Shown piece after piece: positions 15,801-64,000 of a stretch of DNA of 64,000 nt (the stretch's first letter is position 1; every line of letters begins with the position of its first letter). The notes under the pieces were generated by a model. The model made no database searches. It was not told the origin of the DNA and saw only the letters and a program-made list of their open reading frames with translations. Both the position numbers and the translations under genes were made by a program. The stretch comes from Proteiniborus sp. MB09-C3 (GTDB lineage: Bacteria > Bacillota > Clostridia > Tissierellales > Proteiniboraceae), in contig NZ_CP127161.1 in the NCBI RefSeq assembly GCF_030263895.1, forward strand, positions 1,178,001 through 1,242,000, in the 5' to 3' direction.

Positions 15801-17377
15801 TTAGTCTGCTTTACATGTTTTTTGAATTAATGAATCCCATGGCATCATAAGATTCAGTACTTTCGGGTTAGTCTTTAAATTAGAACCAGGTATTCTGGAT
15901 AAAATGAACTCTAAATATTTGTAGGGATTTAAGCCATTTGCCTTTGCGGTTTCCACTAATGTATATACGCATGCACTTGCTTTGGCTCCTTCAGGGCTTC
16001 CGCAAAACTCCCAGTTCTTTCTCCCTACGGTAAATGGTTTGATACTGTTTTCTGCAATGTTGTTGGATATTACACAGTTCCCATCTTCTAGGTATGTTTG
16101 AAGCTTTTCCTTATGATTTATCGCATATTGAAGAGCTGTTCCAATTTTAGATTTTGGCAGTACTTGTGTGAGTACTGTTTCTGCCCACGACCAAAAGGCA
16201 TCAAGAATTGGTTTTTCCTTTTCTAGACGCTTAATTTTTCTCTCTTCAGGCGAGAGGTCTTTAAGTTTTCTTTCCCAGTCAAATAGTTGATTACAGTATG
16301 CTATTCCTGTGGCAGGTAGAGCTCCTTCCTGACTTTTCGTATCTTTTGGCATAGCATCATTAAAGTATCTCCTGACATGGGCCCAGCACAAGCAGTGGTG
16401 GATATCTTTTACTTTTCCATAACCTGAGAAAGCATCCGTATGTAAAAATCCACTGAACCCTTTAAGAAATTTGCTTGCGTTTTCTCCAGCTCTTCCTGTA
16501 GCATATTTAAATATCCTAATGCCACGATTTGCATGGGTGGATGTAGAGTAAACCCACATGTATGATTTAGTAGTGTTTTTCTTTCCAGGTTCATTTAGTA
16601 CTTGAACTGGAGTTTCGTCAGCATGCAAATACTTCTCCTTTAAGAGTTCTTCCTGAAGTCTTTCCACTACAGGCATTAGCCATTCTTCTGATGTCTTTAG
16701 TATCCAATTGGATAGTGTTGCACGGCTAATTGGAAAGCCCATCTGCTTCCAATCTTTTTCTTGGCGATATAGGGGAACTGCTTGTACAAATTTTTGATAC
16801 ATAGTCCAAGCAACGCTTGATGCAGTGGCATATGAATGTTGTAATACTGGCTCTGGAGTATATGGATTAAAAATAGAAGGCAGACCTTCTTTTTTGCATT
16901 TTCTGCACTCATAGGTCTCTTGATATATATTTACAATGCTGATTTCGGCTGGAATATATTTAATTTCAGAACGTAAGAATTTCTTACCTACAACTGATAG
17001 ATTATCTCCACATTTAGGACAGTTCCTTTGAGTTTCTTCTAATTTGTATACTTGGTCTTGCTGAGGAATATTTTTAAATGCTGCCTTCCTTTGTAACCTG
17101 AACGTGTTCTTCTTACAGGTTCTTCGAATGGAACTGGTTCTAGCTCTGTAAAATCTGCAGCTACCTCTGCTTCATTAAAAAGACCAAGAGCCACTTCCTC
17201 AATTACAAGTTGTCCATTAATTGCAGATGTTTTTTCGGTCTTTCTGCCATATAGTTTCTTTAATAGAAATTCTACATTTTCATTAGCACGCTGAAGCTCT
17301 TTTCTTAGAGATTCTATTATTTCATTTTGTGATTCAATTGTCTTTTGAAGTGTTTGTATTAATATGTTTTCAGTCAC
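15801..17377 (-). pseudogene. tnpC: IS66 transposase TnpC, frameshifted
   Basis: The N-terminal part (17039-17377) encodes the leucine-zipper-like region and stops early. The C-terminal part (open from 16802 to 15801) holds the DDE domain, with LHADETPVQVL, HTDAFSGY and NNIAENSIKP. Between them the second frame encodes the zinc finger (CPKCGD and CRKCKKEG). The frame change lies at about 17083-17092, where GGAAGGC stands in place of an expected GGAAGGAAGGC, consistent with loss of 4 bases from a short tandem repeat. The intact protein would be about 520 residues, normal for the family. The dependent start at 16802 is not a real start. Confidence 0.85.
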
Positions 17378-17489
17378 TTTAAATTAGCCTTCTCTCTAAG
17401 TTTTTATCTATCTTAATTATACCATTTTTTGTTTGAAAAAGCTACTAAAAAAAGGCTTAAAATACGCTTTTTGGTGCGTTTTTTAGCCT

Positions 17490-17846
17490 TTAAATTACTC
17501 TCTTTTTCTCTAATTTTGGTATGGTATTTTTCTGATGGATAGATAGACCTTCCATTAACCAACGATATTGCTGAGGAGTTATCTCTAATACTTCCTGAGG
17601 GTCTTTTGGCCAGTTAAAAGAACCGCCTTCAAGTCTTTTGTATAGTAGTAAAAACCCATCTCCCTCCCATAACAATCCCTTCAATCTGTCACGTCTTCTC
17701 CCACAGAATAAAAACAGACTCTTTTCAAATGGATCAAGATGAAAATTTTGAGCTACAATGGTTGCAAGACCATCGATTGATTTCCGCATATCCGTATGTC
17801 CGCATGCAACGTAAATATGGACAAAGCCGTTAAATTCTGCTAACAT
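17490..17846 (-). CDS. tnpB: IS66 accessory protein TnpB
   Basis: The 118-residue product shows the classic IS66 Orf2 features: VACGHTDMRKSIDGLA near the N-terminus, LFLFCGRRRDRLKGL in the middle, and the W-E-G-D-G-F-L-L-L-Y-K-R segment. It overlaps tnpA by 7 bases, as is usual for the family. The protein is required with TnpC for transposition. Confidence 0.93.
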   Translation of the reverse strand: MLAEFNGFVHIYVACGHTDMRKSIDGLATIVAQNFHLDPFEKSLFLFCGRRRDRLKGLLWEGDGFLLLYKRLEGGSFNWPKDPQEVLEITPQQYRWLMEGLSIHQKNTIPKLEKKRVI

Positions 17847-18202
17847 AAGCTATCTAATATCTGGAGAACCTGCTCCAATGTTTTAGGATTAGCAGCATTC
17901 TTAATTTCGATGGAAAATGAACTAGTTTTTATTACTGCACAGGTACCAGCCTCATCAGTATCTGTATTGTTCATTTCAGAAACTTTAACAGCTGCAAAAG
18001 AAGGTTGAACTACCTGCGGTTCTCTTGGTATCAATGCCAGGGACTCATTGCGAATCACCCTTAGCCAGTAATAGAATTGACTTGGTTTAATTCCATTTTC
18101 GCTACACCATTCTCGTACTGGCATACCACTATTTCTACATCTAGAGATAATTTCACGCCATTCCTGAACCTTAACCTGATGGCTTATAGATCTCATATCC
18201 AT
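17840..18202 (-). CDS. tnpA: IS66 accessory protein TnpA (HTH)
   Basis: The 120-residue product has the Tnp_8-type HTH: EWREIISRCRNSGMPVREWC followed by GIKPSQFYYWLRVIR. It is the first gene of the IS operon, and GGAGGGATCC lies upstream on the minus strand. TnpA binds DNA within the element and assists transposition. Confidence 0.93.
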   Translation of the reverse strand: MDMRSISHQVKVQEWREIISRCRNSGMPVREWCSENGIKPSQFYYWLRVIRNESLALIPREPQVVQPSFAAVKVSEMNNTDTDEAGTCAVIKTSSFSIEIKNAANPKTLEQVLQILDSLC

Positions 18203-42713: not shown

Positions 42714-43457
42714 ATGGATAAACTAGAGCAAATTAAAGAACATGCAAAAGAACTTAGCCTGAATTACTTAAGAATTAACGCAGATAAAATTATTGAGGAA
42801 GCTGATTTAAACGATTACTCATATCAAGATATATTAATAAAAATACTTGAAAATGAAATAGAAATAAGAGATAAAAAAGCACAAGAAAGAAGATTAAAGA
42901 ATGCAGGATTTCCGGTAATAAAGAAAATAGAAGACTTTGACTTAGATTTTCAAAAATCTATAACAAAGAAACAGATAAATAGGCTATTAGAAATGGAGTG
43001 GATAGATAGGATGTATAATCTTATCTTCCTAGGCCCTCCAGGTGTAGGAAAGACGCATCTATCAATTTCATTAGGATATAAAGCAGTAGAATTAGGGTAT
43101 AAGGTTAGCTTTGTAACAATGGATAACCTGATGCACGTACTAAAAACACACGAAATATCAAGAAAGAGCAAAGGAAAAATGAATAGAATACTATCTTCAA
43201 GCCTTGTAATAATAGACGAACTAGGTTACCTTCCAATAACAAGAGAAGAAGCAAATCTATTTTTTCAGTTAGTATCGGCACTTCATGAACAGGCTTCAAT
43301 TATTATCACATCTAATAAAGGCTTAGAAGATTGGACAGAGCTATTAGGAGATCCTGCTTTAACAACAGCAGTATTAGACAGAATTACATACAGATGTGAG
43401 CTTTTTAGCATGTCTGGCAAGAGCTATAGACTAGAACACAGAAAGTCATTATTCTAA
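42714..43457 (+). CDS. istB: IS21 ATP-binding helper IstB
   Basis: The 247-residue AAA+ protein has Walker A FLGPPGVGKTH, Walker B LVIIDELGYLP and sensor-type SIIITSNKGLEDW. It forms an oligomer that presents target DNA to IstA. ATG 42714 follows GGAGATAAAA. The gene appears complete and ends about 70 bases before the right terminus. Confidence 0.93.
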   Translation: MDKLEQIKEHAKELSLNYLRINADKIIEEADLNDYSYQDILIKILENEIEIRDKKAQERRLKNAGFPVIKKIEDFDLDFQKSITKKQINRLLEMEWIDRMYNLIFLGPPGVGKTHLSISLGYKAVELGYKVSFVTMDNLMHVLKTHEISRKSKGKMNRILSSSLVIIDELGYLPITREEANLFFQLVSALHEQASIIITSNKGLEDWTELLGDPALTTAVLDRITYRCELFSMSGKSYRLEHRKSLF

Positions 43458-60263: not shown

Positions 60264-60707
60264 ATGATTAAATATCCTGAACCAACTGTAAGTGCTATTA
60301 TTTATAATCCTGAAGGGAAAATATTACTATGCAAATCTCATAAATGGGAAAACAAATATGTAATTCCTGGAGGCCATATTGAATTAGGAGAAAAAATGGA
60401 GGAAGCATTGAAAAGAGAGATACTAGAAGAGACAGGTTTAGATATTTATGATATTAAGTTGATTGGCTTAAAAGAAAGTATATATAGCGATACGTTCTAC
60501 GAGAAGAAACACTTTATTTTCATTGATTATCTATGTAGGACAGACTCAAACCATGTTTCCTTAAATGATGAAGCAGAAGAATATGAATGGGTTGATATAA
60601 AGGAAATTGAAAATTATGATTTAGGGGGATTTACAAAAGAATTATTATTGAGATTAAGAAATAAGAATGAACCTCAAGATTATATAGAGATATTTTATAA
60701 TTATTAG
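60264..60707 (+). CDS. NUDIX hydrolase (147 aa)
   Basis: The NUDIX motif GGHIELGEKMEEALKREILE followed by ETG is complete, and P-T-V-S-A-I-I-Y at the start is the common first strand. The substrate may be an oxidised nucleotide or ADP-ribose derivative. ATG 60264 lies 13 bases after CGGAGGTG; GTG 60249 overlaps that site and is less likely. The gene is apparently complete. Confidence 0.88.
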   Translation: MIKYPEPTVSAIIYNPEGKILLCKSHKWENKYVIPGGHIELGEKMEEALKREILEETGLDIYDIKLIGLKESIYSDTFYEKKHFIFIDYLCRTDSNHVSLNDEAEEYEWVDIKEIENYDLGGFTKELLLRLRNKNEPQDYIEIFYNY

Positions 60708-60821
60708 AGGTAGTTTTTCTTTCAAGGTGACACAACATAAAGAAAAATATTTAGAGTTAGAGTTTAAGACAAGAAATAGGTATGGTAAATAAGTAATAAA
60801 TGCATAATTCATTTGGGGATA

Positions 60822-60880
60822 TGCTTATTGCTATTTTTCAAACAACAAATAAAGTGAAAAATAGCAATAAGCAACTTTTT
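60822..60880 (+). terminator. Strong terminator
   Basis: Perfect 18-base arms (TGCTTATTGCTATTTTTC / GAAAAATAGCAATAAGCA) with a 16-base loop and ACTTTTTT after. Another hairpin (ACCTTCTTTG / CAAAGAAGGT, about 60990-61022, containing TATAAT) precedes the next gene. Confidence 0.85.
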
Positions 60881-61109
60881 TGATGTTAACATTTTATATC
60901 TATTGTTTATCTATGATCAATTGACGTTGTAGGAATTAAACAATGTTTGCATTTAATAATTGATGCTTTGAGATAGTATGTAAGCTATTACCTTCTTTGT
61001 GTTATAATATGCCAAAGAAGGTGATTTTTCATATTAAAAGAGAGATACGACTTTATCATTTTTTAAAGCAGAGAAGTAAATTACTGAATATTAACTGGGA
61101 GTGTTTTTA

Positions 61110-62192
61110 ATGGCTTCAAATAAGTGGGATACTATTGATATAGATACCAGTGAAGGTAGAGTAAAGGGGATTGCACCAATTATTATTTCAGCGAGCCGTT
61201 CAACAGATATACCTGCATTTTATTCTGAGTGGTTTATTAATAGATTAAAAGAAGGATATGTTAAATGGATAAATCCCTTCAATGGGAAGCCACAATATGT
61301 ATCTTTCCACAAGACTCGAGTAATAGTATTTTGGACGAAGGATGCTGAGCCTATTATCCCACATCTGAAAGAGATTGACAGTAGAAGAATCAATTATTAT
61401 TTCACATTTACAATAAATGATTATGAAAAAGAAGGTTTTGAGCTAGGGGTAAGGAGATTGGACAGAAGAATAGATACCTTTAAGAGGCTTTCAGAAAAGA
61501 TAGGGAAAGAGAAAATGATTTGGAGATTTGATCCACTAATAATTACGGATAAAATTAACGTGGAAGCCTTATTAGATAAGATTGCTAAGATTGGAAATGG
61601 GCTTCCAGATTATACCAATAAACTTGTAATAAGCTTTGCAGATATTTCTGCATATAGAAATGTACAAAATAATTTGAGAAAAAATAATGTTAACTATATT
61701 GAGTTTACTCCTGAGACGATGGAAGCTGTAGCTAAAGGATTGTACGAGATTAATAAAGATTGGAAGCTAGAAATAGCAACTTGCTCAGAAGGCATTGATT
61801 TAAGCAGATATAATATTAAAAAGAATAAGTGTATTGATGACGATTTAATGATTAATGTGTTTTCAGATGATAAAGAACTAATGGATTTTTTAGATTATGA
61901 TAATATTGGCAGCACAACGAAAGCTAATGAGCAAATACAATTAAACTTTATTGAAAACACGTACGAGTACATCCTAGGAAAGAATGCTGATAATAGCTTT
62001 GATAGATGGAGAAGGCTTAAAGACAAAGGGCAAAGGGAATGCTGTGGATGCATAATAAGTAAGGACATTGGGCAATACGATACTTGTAGCCATCACTGTA
62101 TATACTGTTATGCCAACAAAACACCACATATTGCAAAGAATAATTATCAAAGATATTTAAAGTCTAATAAAAATGGGGAGTCAATAATTTGA
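61110..62192 (+). CDS. DUF1848 family protein (360 aa)
   Basis: The protein shows PIIISASRSTDIPAFYSEWF near the N-terminus and CGCIISKDIGQYDTCSHHC followed by IYCYANK near the C-terminus, typical of DUF1848. The Cys pattern suggests an iron-sulfur cluster, and the fold is thought to resemble radical-SAM barrels; its reaction is unknown. ATG 61110 has GGGAGTG 8 bases upstream. It stands alone between terminators. Confidence 0.85.
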   Translation: MASNKWDTIDIDTSEGRVKGIAPIIISASRSTDIPAFYSEWFINRLKEGYVKWINPFNGKPQYVSFHKTRVIVFWTKDAEPIIPHLKEIDSRRINYYFTFTINDYEKEGFELGVRRLDRRIDTFKRLSEKIGKEKMIWRFDPLIITDKINVEALLDKIAKIGNGLPDYTNKLVISFADISAYRNVQNNLRKNNVNYIEFTPETMEAVAKGLYEINKDWKLEIATCSEGIDLSRYNIKKNKCIDDDLMINVFSDDKELMDFLDYDNIGSTTKANEQIQLNFIENTYEYILGKNADNSFDRWRRLKDKGQRECCGCIISKDIGQYDTCSHHCIYCYANKTPHIAKNNYQRYLKSNKNGESII

Positions 62193-62235
62193 TATAGGTG
62201 TAAATTATAAAATATGATTTTTAAGGAAAGCACGG

Positions 62236-62268
62236 CGTCAGATTGTATATCAATTTGACGTTTTTTTA
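62236..62268 (+). terminator. Rho-independent terminator
   Basis: CGTCAGATTG and CAATTTGACG pair (one mismatch) and are followed by seven T. It belongs to the same GCGTCAG-type terminators seen at 36199, 57040 and 57454. Confidence 0.85.
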
Positions 62269-62397
62269 TTATGTATAAAAGCTTAAGATTGTAGCATTCT
62301 AAATATTCCCATAACATAATAGTAATATCGCCATCAATATAAAAATAGTATTAAGTATCATCTTTTTTAGGTAAATATGTTAAGGGGTGTTATTTTA

Positions 62398-63111
62398 ATG
62401 AGGTTAGTAATGATAAGAAAAGAAGTACTATTAGTTTTACCTTTACTTATAATAGGGATAGTCTTTGTGTTTATGGAAAAAAACGATTCAGTTCCTACAA
62501 TGTATCTGCCTATTACTGATAAAATAATAGCCATAGATGCAGGGCATGGGGGAATTGATCCAGGGGCAGTAGGGAAGCAAGGAGTTGAAGAAGATGAAAT
62601 AAACCTTCAAATAGCTTTAAAGCTTAGAAAGTTAATAGAGGAAAATGGTGGGATAGCTATACTCACAAGAAATGATGGAGAAGGTCTATATACTGGAGAA
62701 TCAAAAACCGTCAGAGATAAAAAGAATGAAGATCTTAGAAATAGAAAAATAGAAGTCAATAATAGTGAACCAGATGTATTATTGTCAATTCACTTAAATA
62801 GTTTTCCAAAATCACAATATTATGGAGCACAGACCTTCTATAAAGCTGGATGTGAGAAAAGCAAAAATCTAGCATACTTAATTCAAGAAGAGCTTAAGAA
62901 TGTATTAGATAAAAATAATAAAAGAATTCCTCAGTCAAGAGACAATATTTATTTAATAAGAGAAGCAGAAGTCCCAGCAGTTTTAGTTGAATGCGGTTTT
63001 TTATCAAATCTCCAAGAAGAAAGCAAGCTAAAAGATCCTAAGTATCAACAAAAAATAGCATGGGGAATTTATATAGGAGTTATGAGATACTTTAATGAAT
63101 ATGAAAAATGA
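62398..63111 (+). CDS. cwlD: N-acetylmuramoyl-L-alanine amidase CwlD
   Basis: CwlD acts in spore cortex maturation, helping to form muramic lactam. ATG 62398 follows AAGGGGTG; the frame opens at 62377 but that ATG precedes the ribosome-binding site. Residues 5-25 are a signal anchor (MIRKEVLLVLPLLIIGIVFV). The Amidase_3 domain has AIDAGHGGIDPGA (zinc His), E-x-x-I-N-L (Glu), LLSIHLNSF (second His) and AVLVECGFLSN (catalytic Glu). The 237-residue length is normal. Confidence 0.9.
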   Translation: MRLVMIRKEVLLVLPLLIIGIVFVFMEKNDSVPTMYLPITDKIIAIDAGHGGIDPGAVGKQGVEEDEINLQIALKLRKLIEENGGIAILTRNDGEGLYTGESKTVRDKKNEDLRNRKIEVNNSEPDVLLSIHLNSFPKSQYYGAQTFYKAGCEKSKNLAYLIQEELKNVLDKNNKRIPQSRDNIYLIREAEVPAVLVECGFLSNLQEESKLKDPKYQQKIAWGIYIGVMRYFNEYEK

Positions 63112-63196
63112 CTGTGAATCAGAAATACTAAAAATGCCATTTCAATAGATAATGAAAATCATAATTTGCTGTGTTAATAATATGTGAATAATATTT

Positions 63197-63330
63197 TGTG
63201 GATAACTTCAAAGACTGTGGAAAACCTATTATTATGTAAAGTATAGCCTTGTATTACTTTTAAATTAGATATTAGTTATGTTTACATAAGTTATCCACCA
63301 CCGATTGTGGATAATGTGGATAAAGTGGAT
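63197..63330 (+). promoter_or_regulatory. Cluster of DnaA boxes
   Basis: Perfect TGTGGATAA (the reverse of TTATCCACA) occurs at 63197, 63306 and 63315. Near matches are TGTGGAAAA at 63216, TTATCCACC at 63291 and AGTGGATAG at about 63324. The surrounding DNA is AT-rich and gene-free (63112-63531). It may be a DnaA-binding reservoir, a DnaA-regulated promoter region or part of an origin. Confidence 0.75.
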
Positions 63331-63531
63331 AGAAAATTGAGAATCTATATCAACTGAAAGAACTAGGAATTAAGTACTAATTATCTTAGATATTTAGTTG
63401 CAAAGATATAATGGAATTTTTCTATAAATAAAACTTTGATAATTTTAGATTCTATAATAGAATATGAATAAGGCAATGGATAAAAATTTATGCTACTTTG
63501 GCGACAAATGAATCATAAGGTGGTTGATAGA

Positions 63532-64000
63532 ATGATAAAAAATAAATCTACTATAATTGGGGCTATAATTTCTCTAATATTATTAACAGTATTCGTTTTT
63601 TTAGCTATAAAGGTATCAGCAATAGATGGAGGAATATTATTTGATCATAAGATTATTTCTTCTGTTCATGAAAATATTAATCCAGTTGTAAAGAATTTTA
63701 TGATTGCAATTAGTTTTATGGGATCAGCCAAATTTTACTTTATTATAGCACCATTTTTAATATGGTATTTACTAAAGAAAAAGCATTGGATAGAGCTTTG
63801 TGCCTTAATAATATCTATATTGGGAAGTGTATTAATAAATCATTTATTAAAAATATCCCTTGAAAGAGCTAGACCCTATGAATTCTTTTTAGTTGAGCAA
63901 GGTGGCTTTAGCTTTCCCAGCGGGCACTCAATGAATACTCTTAGCTTTTATGGAATGGCTGCATATCTTTACTTAAGGAACAAAAAGTTGGACTTAAGCA
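63532..64000 (+). CDS. PAP2-family phosphatase, 5' part
   Basis: ATG 63532 follows AAGGTGG. The visible 156 residues contain several membrane helices (TIIGAIISLILLTVFVFLAI; FYFIIAPFLIWYLL; CALIISILGSVLI). The first PAP2 motif is K-x6-R-P (KISLERARP) and the second P-S-G-H (FPSGHSMN). Such enzymes remove phosphate from lipids, for example undecaprenyl pyrophosphate or phosphatidic acid derivatives. The third motif lies beyond the window. Confidence 0.9.
   Translation, partial: MIKNKSTIIGAIISLILLTVFVFLAIKVSAIDGGILFDHKIISSVHENINPVVKNFMIAISFMGSAKFYFIIAPFLIWYLLKKKHWIELCALIISILGSVLINHLLKISLERARPYEFFLVEQGGFSFPSGHSMNTLSFYGMAAYLYLRNKKLDLS

Follow-up and report, generated by a model that had tools for sequence, protein, structure and literature searches.

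A conserved non-coding DnaA-box cluster downstream of cwlD in Proteiniborus and related genomes: a candidate site for the control of available DnaA

The window analysed here, a 64-kb stretch (64,000 nucleotides) of the Proteiniborus sp. MB09-C3 chromosome, carries between its cwlD and PAP2 genes a compact element in which three perfect and four degenerate DnaA boxes and an inverted repeat are packed into 150 bp. From what was established directly (sequence, layout, conservation, copy number, addresses, and independence from neighbouring genes), we infer DnaA binding, complex formation and an effect on initiation. With a probability of roughly 0.55, our analysis favours reading the element as a lineage-specific, strictly organised form of the Firmicutes DnaA-box clusters outside oriC, which would control the amount of available DnaA. 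As such, it probably helps to set the timing of chromosome copying.

The element extends over approximately 63183-63332 of the window (plus strand), as delimited with a sequence model (R1) and an alignment (A2), each made from 26 elements, and consists of two DnaA-box groups around the inverted repeat and a variable linker. About seven boxes are predicted in it, and the stretch is non-coding. Three minus-strand boxes form the left group, with offsets counted relative to the facing box of the right group: TGTGAATAA, found by box scan with one mismatch (63183-63191, -108), an exact match to TGTGGATAA at a conserved position (63197-63205, -94), and TGTGGAAAA, again found by box scan with one mismatch (63216-63224, -75). 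In the right group, the facing box TTATCCACC (63291-63299) is on the opposite, plus strand, and has one mismatch and a non-consensus ninth base. It is followed 6 bp later, on the minus strand, by a perfect TGTGGATAA box (63306-63314), a second perfect box abutting the first (63315-63323), and a third, degenerate tandem box, AGTGGATAG, with two mismatches (63324-63332). Between the groups are the left arm of the inverted repeat, TTATGTAAA (63232-63240, plus strand), an AT-rich linker (63241-63279) and the right arm, TTTACATAA (63281-63289, plus strand), one base ahead of the facing box. This repeat, whose arms may be the site of a second protein, was absent from the first-pass annotation; the three perfect boxes reported there, two of them abutting, and the near matches around them were borne out by exact and mismatch scans. 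The neighbours that it named were likewise confirmed by Pfam, and both are outside the element: a cwlD-like N-acetylmuramoyl-L-alanine amidase gene upstream (62377-63111, plus strand; Amidase_3, 157 bits) and a PAP2-family gene downstream (63532-63999, plus strand; PAP2, 31.8 bits), which continues beyond the window end and has a full length of 216 aa, as seen in locus L092. Rfam gave no match in 60500-64000. Small open reading frames of 20-31 aa in the gap were considered and judged unconvincing, with no Sda-like peptide recognised by eye.

Exact matches to TTATCCACA/TGTGGATAA number three in the window, all on the minus strand and all inside the cwlD-PAP2 gap; three were also reached in 6 of 100 whole-window shuffles, and the count alone is thus weak evidence. 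With one mismatch allowed, the cluster holds six boxes inside 150 bp, and the maximum in 60 windows simulated with a first-order Markov model was three such boxes per 150 bp, attained once. Across the genome (3,881,360 bases, one contig) there were 63 exact boxes versus 73 in a reversed control, and hence no genome-wide excess. The cluster is the sole trio of perfect boxes inside 150 bp in this genome and, once oriC is excluded, also the sole trio inside 250 bp; the simulated frequency with which three of the 56 non-oriC boxes, placed randomly, fell inside 127 bp was 0.0002.

Absence of conservation, which the first-pass annotation had named among the grounds for dismissing the cluster, is not what was found. 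Of the 249 genomes of the order, 57 gave strong R1 matches (E ≤ 1e-6); a hand count places them in 32 genera and 12 of the 19 families. As the genomes share ancestry, such counts do not represent independent events. Elements from 26 of the 57 trained the model, and 31 therefore lie outside the training set; the match in the window itself (63181-63331, 88.2 bits) belongs to it. Each of these genomes has one strong locus, save one with two on a single contig. A stringent core pattern was found at 30 places in 29 of the 249 genomes, and not at all in the reversed control. In alignment A2, mean major-base frequencies were highest in the abutting pair (1.00 and 0.99) and the facing box (0.97). The left boxes gave 0.88, 0.93 and 0.88, and the third tandem box 0.77, so that six boxes are conserved at 0.88-1.00 whereas the linker reaches only 0.51; the 6-bp spacer gave 0.50 and the arms 0.78 and 0.91. 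The core spacer is 6 bp in 55 of 57 elements and 5 bp in two, and the third left box falls at -80 to -60 in 49 of 57, 44 of these placing it at -73 to -77. With up to one mismatch, the right arm is present in 39 of 57 elements and the left arm in 28, where it lies at -58 to -61 in all but one (-74 in G021). An argument from helical turns across the linker was abandoned, since in five armless elements the third left box lies at -64, -65, -65, -68 and -70, distances that do not all amount to a single turn.

The element is missing, at the same threshold, from 192 of the 249 genomes, and is thus dispensable. Among these are 33 of the 83 genomes that keep cwlD (10, plus 23 of family f14). Inspection of 1.5-2.3 kb downstream of cwlD at 16 loci without a strong match revealed a degenerate facing core in one (G239), and no three boxes inside 200 bp in the other 15. 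A second sample, of 37 loci found via cwlD in named genomes, showed the layout in Tissierella simiarum, [Clostridium] ultunense and a Thermohalobacteraceae MAG, and a more diverged version in two Anaeromonas species (5-bp spacer, another left group, no arms). Differently ordered clusters directly follow cwlD in Alkaliphilus, Anaerovirgula and a Clostridiaceae MAG, lie 0.3 kb past it in Thermotalea, and lie 1.5-1.6 kb past it in two Geosporobacter, an Anaerosolibacter MAG and Petromonas; the remaining 24 loci had no cluster beside cwlD. Another multi-box layout near cwlD, with a different order, is shared by loci L054, L055, L056, L058 and L063; in L063 it is flanked by an AMMECR1 gene and a radical-SAM gene, and L106, from the order, has the same neighbours by eye.

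Relative to genes, the element has a preferred address rather than a fixed partner. In 46 of 57 genomes it shares a strand with cwlD and begins -36 to +155 bp from where the cwlD match ends; in four more it lies 1.5-1.64 kb downstream of cwlD, again on the same strand. The other seven have no cwlD at E ≤ 1e-40. The contig of one of the seven (G196) begins at the element, and neighbours were read in four (G201, G212, G219 and G222), G212 offering 538 bases of upstream sequence. In G219 the element follows rplM-rpsI (rpsI by Pfam, rplM by eye), and in G201 and G212 gcvT comes after it (by eye). Of 30 pattern loci, three, each from the window genus, have PAP2 beside the element; elsewhere the place of PAP2 is taken by ferredoxin-like, gcvT, DMT transporter, aldo-keto reductase or radical-SAM genes (by eye). 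Because some genomes have the element but lack cwlD or spo0A, and the gene after it varies, regulation of PAP2 or cwlD, one of the roles suggested in the first-pass annotation, is unlikely. Control of cwlD or of the next gene (PAP2 here) by a DnaA-regulated promoter or terminator would have precedent in B. subtilis, where DnaA represses or activates several genes, such as sda, according to the part of PMC4447404 drawn on here, and a promoter-like match does occur at 63436-63463. However, such matches are near shuffle level (16 versus 11.8, sd 3.8), no terminator-like site was found there, and the element, placed 3′ of cwlD, before a gene that depends on the family, and kept where cwlD is lost, differs from an sda-type promoter in having no fixed downstream target gene; we consider this reading quite improbable.

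A link to sporulation was examined and rejected as a sufficient explanation. Spo0A was found in 28 of the 51 genomes tested, and 5 of the 19 element-bearing ones were without it; genus g79 (G219-G222) has the element with neither spo0A nor cwlD, and the element without a spo0A match is also seen in G203, a fragmented genome that is 90% complete. The reverse, spo0A without a strong element, occurs in G019, G020, G023, G024, G159, G160, G188 and G189, and likewise in five genomes of f14.

Nor is the element the replication origin, the third role that had been suggested. Seven perfect boxes flank the sole strong dnaA match in the genome, which is found at 510.9 kb, a distance of 730 kb from the cluster. 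The relative position of the cluster is 0.38 of half the genome; the earlier observation that the cluster is not next to dnaA thus holds genome-wide. GC skew, proposed there as a check, does not switch at the cluster: in twenty 10-kb samples, one of which was near zero at 1.8 Mb, the switches were at 505-515 kb and 2.41-2.60 Mb. A secondary or relic origin would account for a DnaA-box cluster with an AT-rich linker, and many boxes are a property shared with oriC; facing box pairs also exist in some oriC regions outside the order (L274, and L246 and L254, placed at dnaA by eye). Within the order, in contrast, the core layout was not found on the dnaA side, where its best match was 6-10 mismatches off in 13 loci of 12 genomes (three of which, L122, L126 and L222, begin at a contig edge and lack the upstream side), and R1 scored at most 16.9 bits versus 32-95 bits for the 57 strong matches. 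The arm sequence was present in one of the 13. Together with the skew and the poorly conserved linker, these results make a secondary or relic origin extremely unlikely. Clostridial oriC regions are treated in PMC7561715, as far as the portion consulted goes.

Outside the order, strong similarity fades while certain addresses recur. Among 391 genomes of the class, scores above 40 bits were confined to two members of the order itself, with E ≤ 1e-4 in 23 genomes; among 388 genomes of the phylum, only the window genome exceeded 40 bits, and 36 reached E ≤ 1e-4. All 40 weaker phylum places outside the order (23-35 bits) were examined with their neighbours, to which R1 is blind. Twelve, in eight families, are found no more than 0.7 kb downstream of tsaD (which we take to be the gene called gcp in B. 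subtilis), nine at dnaA, three upstream of a YqeG-like HAD gene (by eye), six by comFC and/or hpf (by eye), and ten elsewhere, including L284, which is probably oriC as judged by its neighbours. Pfam on representative neighbours returned HAD hydrolase, phosphoribosyltransferase (just below the cut-off) and S30AE. Seven of the 12 tsaD loci have a recognisable facing core, with ninth base A and spacer 5. The abutting pair is common to the weak phylum matches, partly because R1 rewards such a pair, and as R1 rewards the core as well, the independent evidence is the addresses rather than the core. Nor is the core exclusive to sites outside oriC, since L274, a dnaA locus, carries it with one mismatch. 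A looser pattern, TTATYCACBN{5,6}TGTGGATAR, matched 9 of the 391 class genomes, two of the nine in the order itself; among the other hits, L246 and L254 adjoin dnaA as judged by eye.

These addresses recall a known kind of locus. In the portion of PMC4447404 used here, B. subtilis DnaA has eight high-affinity regions, including those downstream of gcp and ydiF and upstream of yqeG and sda, and the gcp/ydiF region has 10 sites and a 16-fold difference between ATP- and ADP-DnaA. Like the gcp(tsaD)-ydiF and yqeG-sda clusters, the element is non-coding, lies outside oriC and holds several closely spaced DnaA boxes, as is characteristic of Firmicutes clusters, and R1 finds clusters beside tsaD and the YqeG-like gene in other Firmicutes. 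It differs from the B. subtilis clusters, as known from their published description, in its address at the end of cwlD, in its single layout of facing core and abutting pair across families, and in the inverted-repeat arms present in half or more of the elements. The recurrence at tsaD and yqeG supports this kind of site, but is no evidence for the particular locus at cwlD.

Control of available DnaA is the favoured function because related B. subtilis clusters behave in this way. Deletion of six of them led to early initiation (PMC5295017, PMC13220808), and restoring one gave partial relief (PMC5295017); that review terms their role in initiation not significant. Titration of DnaA also fits best among the three roles suggested in the first-pass annotation, judging from the sequence. 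The element would then be a selected non-coding assembly site for DnaA, the order-specific (Tissierella-type) form of the Firmicutes clusters. Binding is predicted to start at the two perfect abutting boxes and may then extend to the facing box on one side and the third tandem box on the other; DnaA on the left group, some 75 bp away, could join the complex, the geometry of which would be set by the arms and the linker. Its output would be exerted at a distance: by titrating active DnaA, the element may delay initiation until enough DnaA has accumulated, and its mid-replichore position would set the time at which this sink doubles. The DnaA of the source genome has GGRDHTTV near its C-terminus, presumably the motif that reads the box.

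Titration needs a number of boxes and not a strict spacing, and the fixed layout thus suggests something more. The element might act as a DARS-like site, where DnaA molecules bound head to head drive ADP release, raise the level of ATP-DnaA and promote initiation. Its topology is that of the E. coli DARS core, one box opposite two others, as described in the available part of PMC5742627 (DARS is also treated in the portion seen of PMC4245941), and these three boxes, one of them opposite, are present in 57 of 57 elements with 0-3 core mismatches. Like DARS1 and DARS2, the element is intergenic, has a non-consensus ninth base in the facing box and occupies an intermediate position between origin and terminus. 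The ninth base is T in 43, C in 11 and G in three of the 57 elements, and never A; outside the order, however, it is A in 25 of the 28 loci with a core. The core spacing differs too, being N6 then N0 (N5 then N0 in two of 57) as opposed to N5 then N3 in E. coli, where DARS1 reads TTATCCACT and DARS2 TTATTCACC (both by eye from E. coli sequence), and the left box group and the arms are extra features. The replichore position was 0.29-0.50 in eight of eight complete or nearly complete genomes (for G191, one of two contigs was used), compared with 0.41 for DARS2 and 0.66 for DARS1, although the eight values are not independent, coming as they do from relatives with a common gene order around cwlD. 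The E. coli positions depend on an oriC coordinate that we assumed. DARS2 was located through primers quoted in the accessible part of PMC4585315. A further point against is that no nucleotide-exchange regulator is known in B. subtilis, according to the sections of PMC13220808 considered here. On balance, a DARS-like role is doubtful, and slightly more so is its most specific version, a single mid-replichore Gram-positive centre at which DnaA swaps ADP for ATP while a second protein, bound to TTATGTAAA/TTTACATAA, replaces IHF/Fis.

The opposite activity, stimulation of ATP hydrolysis by DnaA after replication, would make the element resemble E. coli datA, likewise a locus outside oriC with separated DnaA boxes. 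The two box groups, whose intervening linker might be spanned by a bending protein, and the mostly uniform orientation of the boxes are compatible with this reading. In datA, however, the main boxes flank an IHF site and are separated by about 160 bp (PMC5742627, in the part available; the spacing was taken from positions 2745 and 2907 of L225, treated as boxes 2 and 3), a distance not seen in the element, and datA showed no abutting pair of near-consensus boxes. A datA-like function therefore seems quite improbable, and control of available DnaA by titration continues to be the reading that we prefer.

Within the open-access collection searched, there was no paper on cwlD with a DnaA box, on DnaA-box with Tissierella, or on DnaA ChIP-seq of DnaA boxes in Clostridi, and DnaA together with ydiF and gcp was treated only in PMC4447404. 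A 2026 review, in the passages drawn on, describes B. subtilis as being without datA and DARS, and leaves undecided whether this species has any regulators that balance ADP- and ATP-DnaA (PMC13220808). This question becomes testable with a compact, conserved locus whose core is DARS-like and, should the DARS-like reading hold, control of the nucleotide state of DnaA by non-coding DNA would not be confined to γ-proteobacteria. R1 moreover points to recurrent cluster addresses in Firmicutes, namely tsaD, a YqeG-like gene, comFC-hpf, dnaB and cwlD, of which tsaD and yqeG are already published sites in B. subtilis.

Some clusters have features of their own. The six clusters beside comFC and/or hpf (L298, L300, L301, L302, L303 and L278) include four with a facing core and a 6-bp spacer. 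In family f58 of the class (L160, L168, L169, L171 and L179), a facing core of TTATCCACA or a near match, N6 and TGTGGATAA is accompanied by a degenerate tandem box, and in L160 and L169 this core is upstream of a gene for a similar, secreted-looking protein. Loci of family f39, also of the class (L157, L162, L158, L159, L166, L175 and L176), share a near-identical CGAACATATGTGCATATCTC followed by TGTGGATAATGTGGATAA, the last base of the latter being G in L175; in L157 and L162 the stretch is downstream of dnaB (Pfam on L157). Its CGAACATATGTGC part resembles what we take to be a LexA/SOS box, and might link DnaA and SOS control. Elsewhere in the window, approximately 42999-43319 (C1:1220999-1221319) corresponds to one of seven 249-aa frames in the genome with weak Bac_DnaA matches of near-identical score, which we presume to be the helper ATPase of an insertion sequence, and positions 16001-18000 show a local reversal of both GC and AT skew in an otherwise positively skewed sequence.
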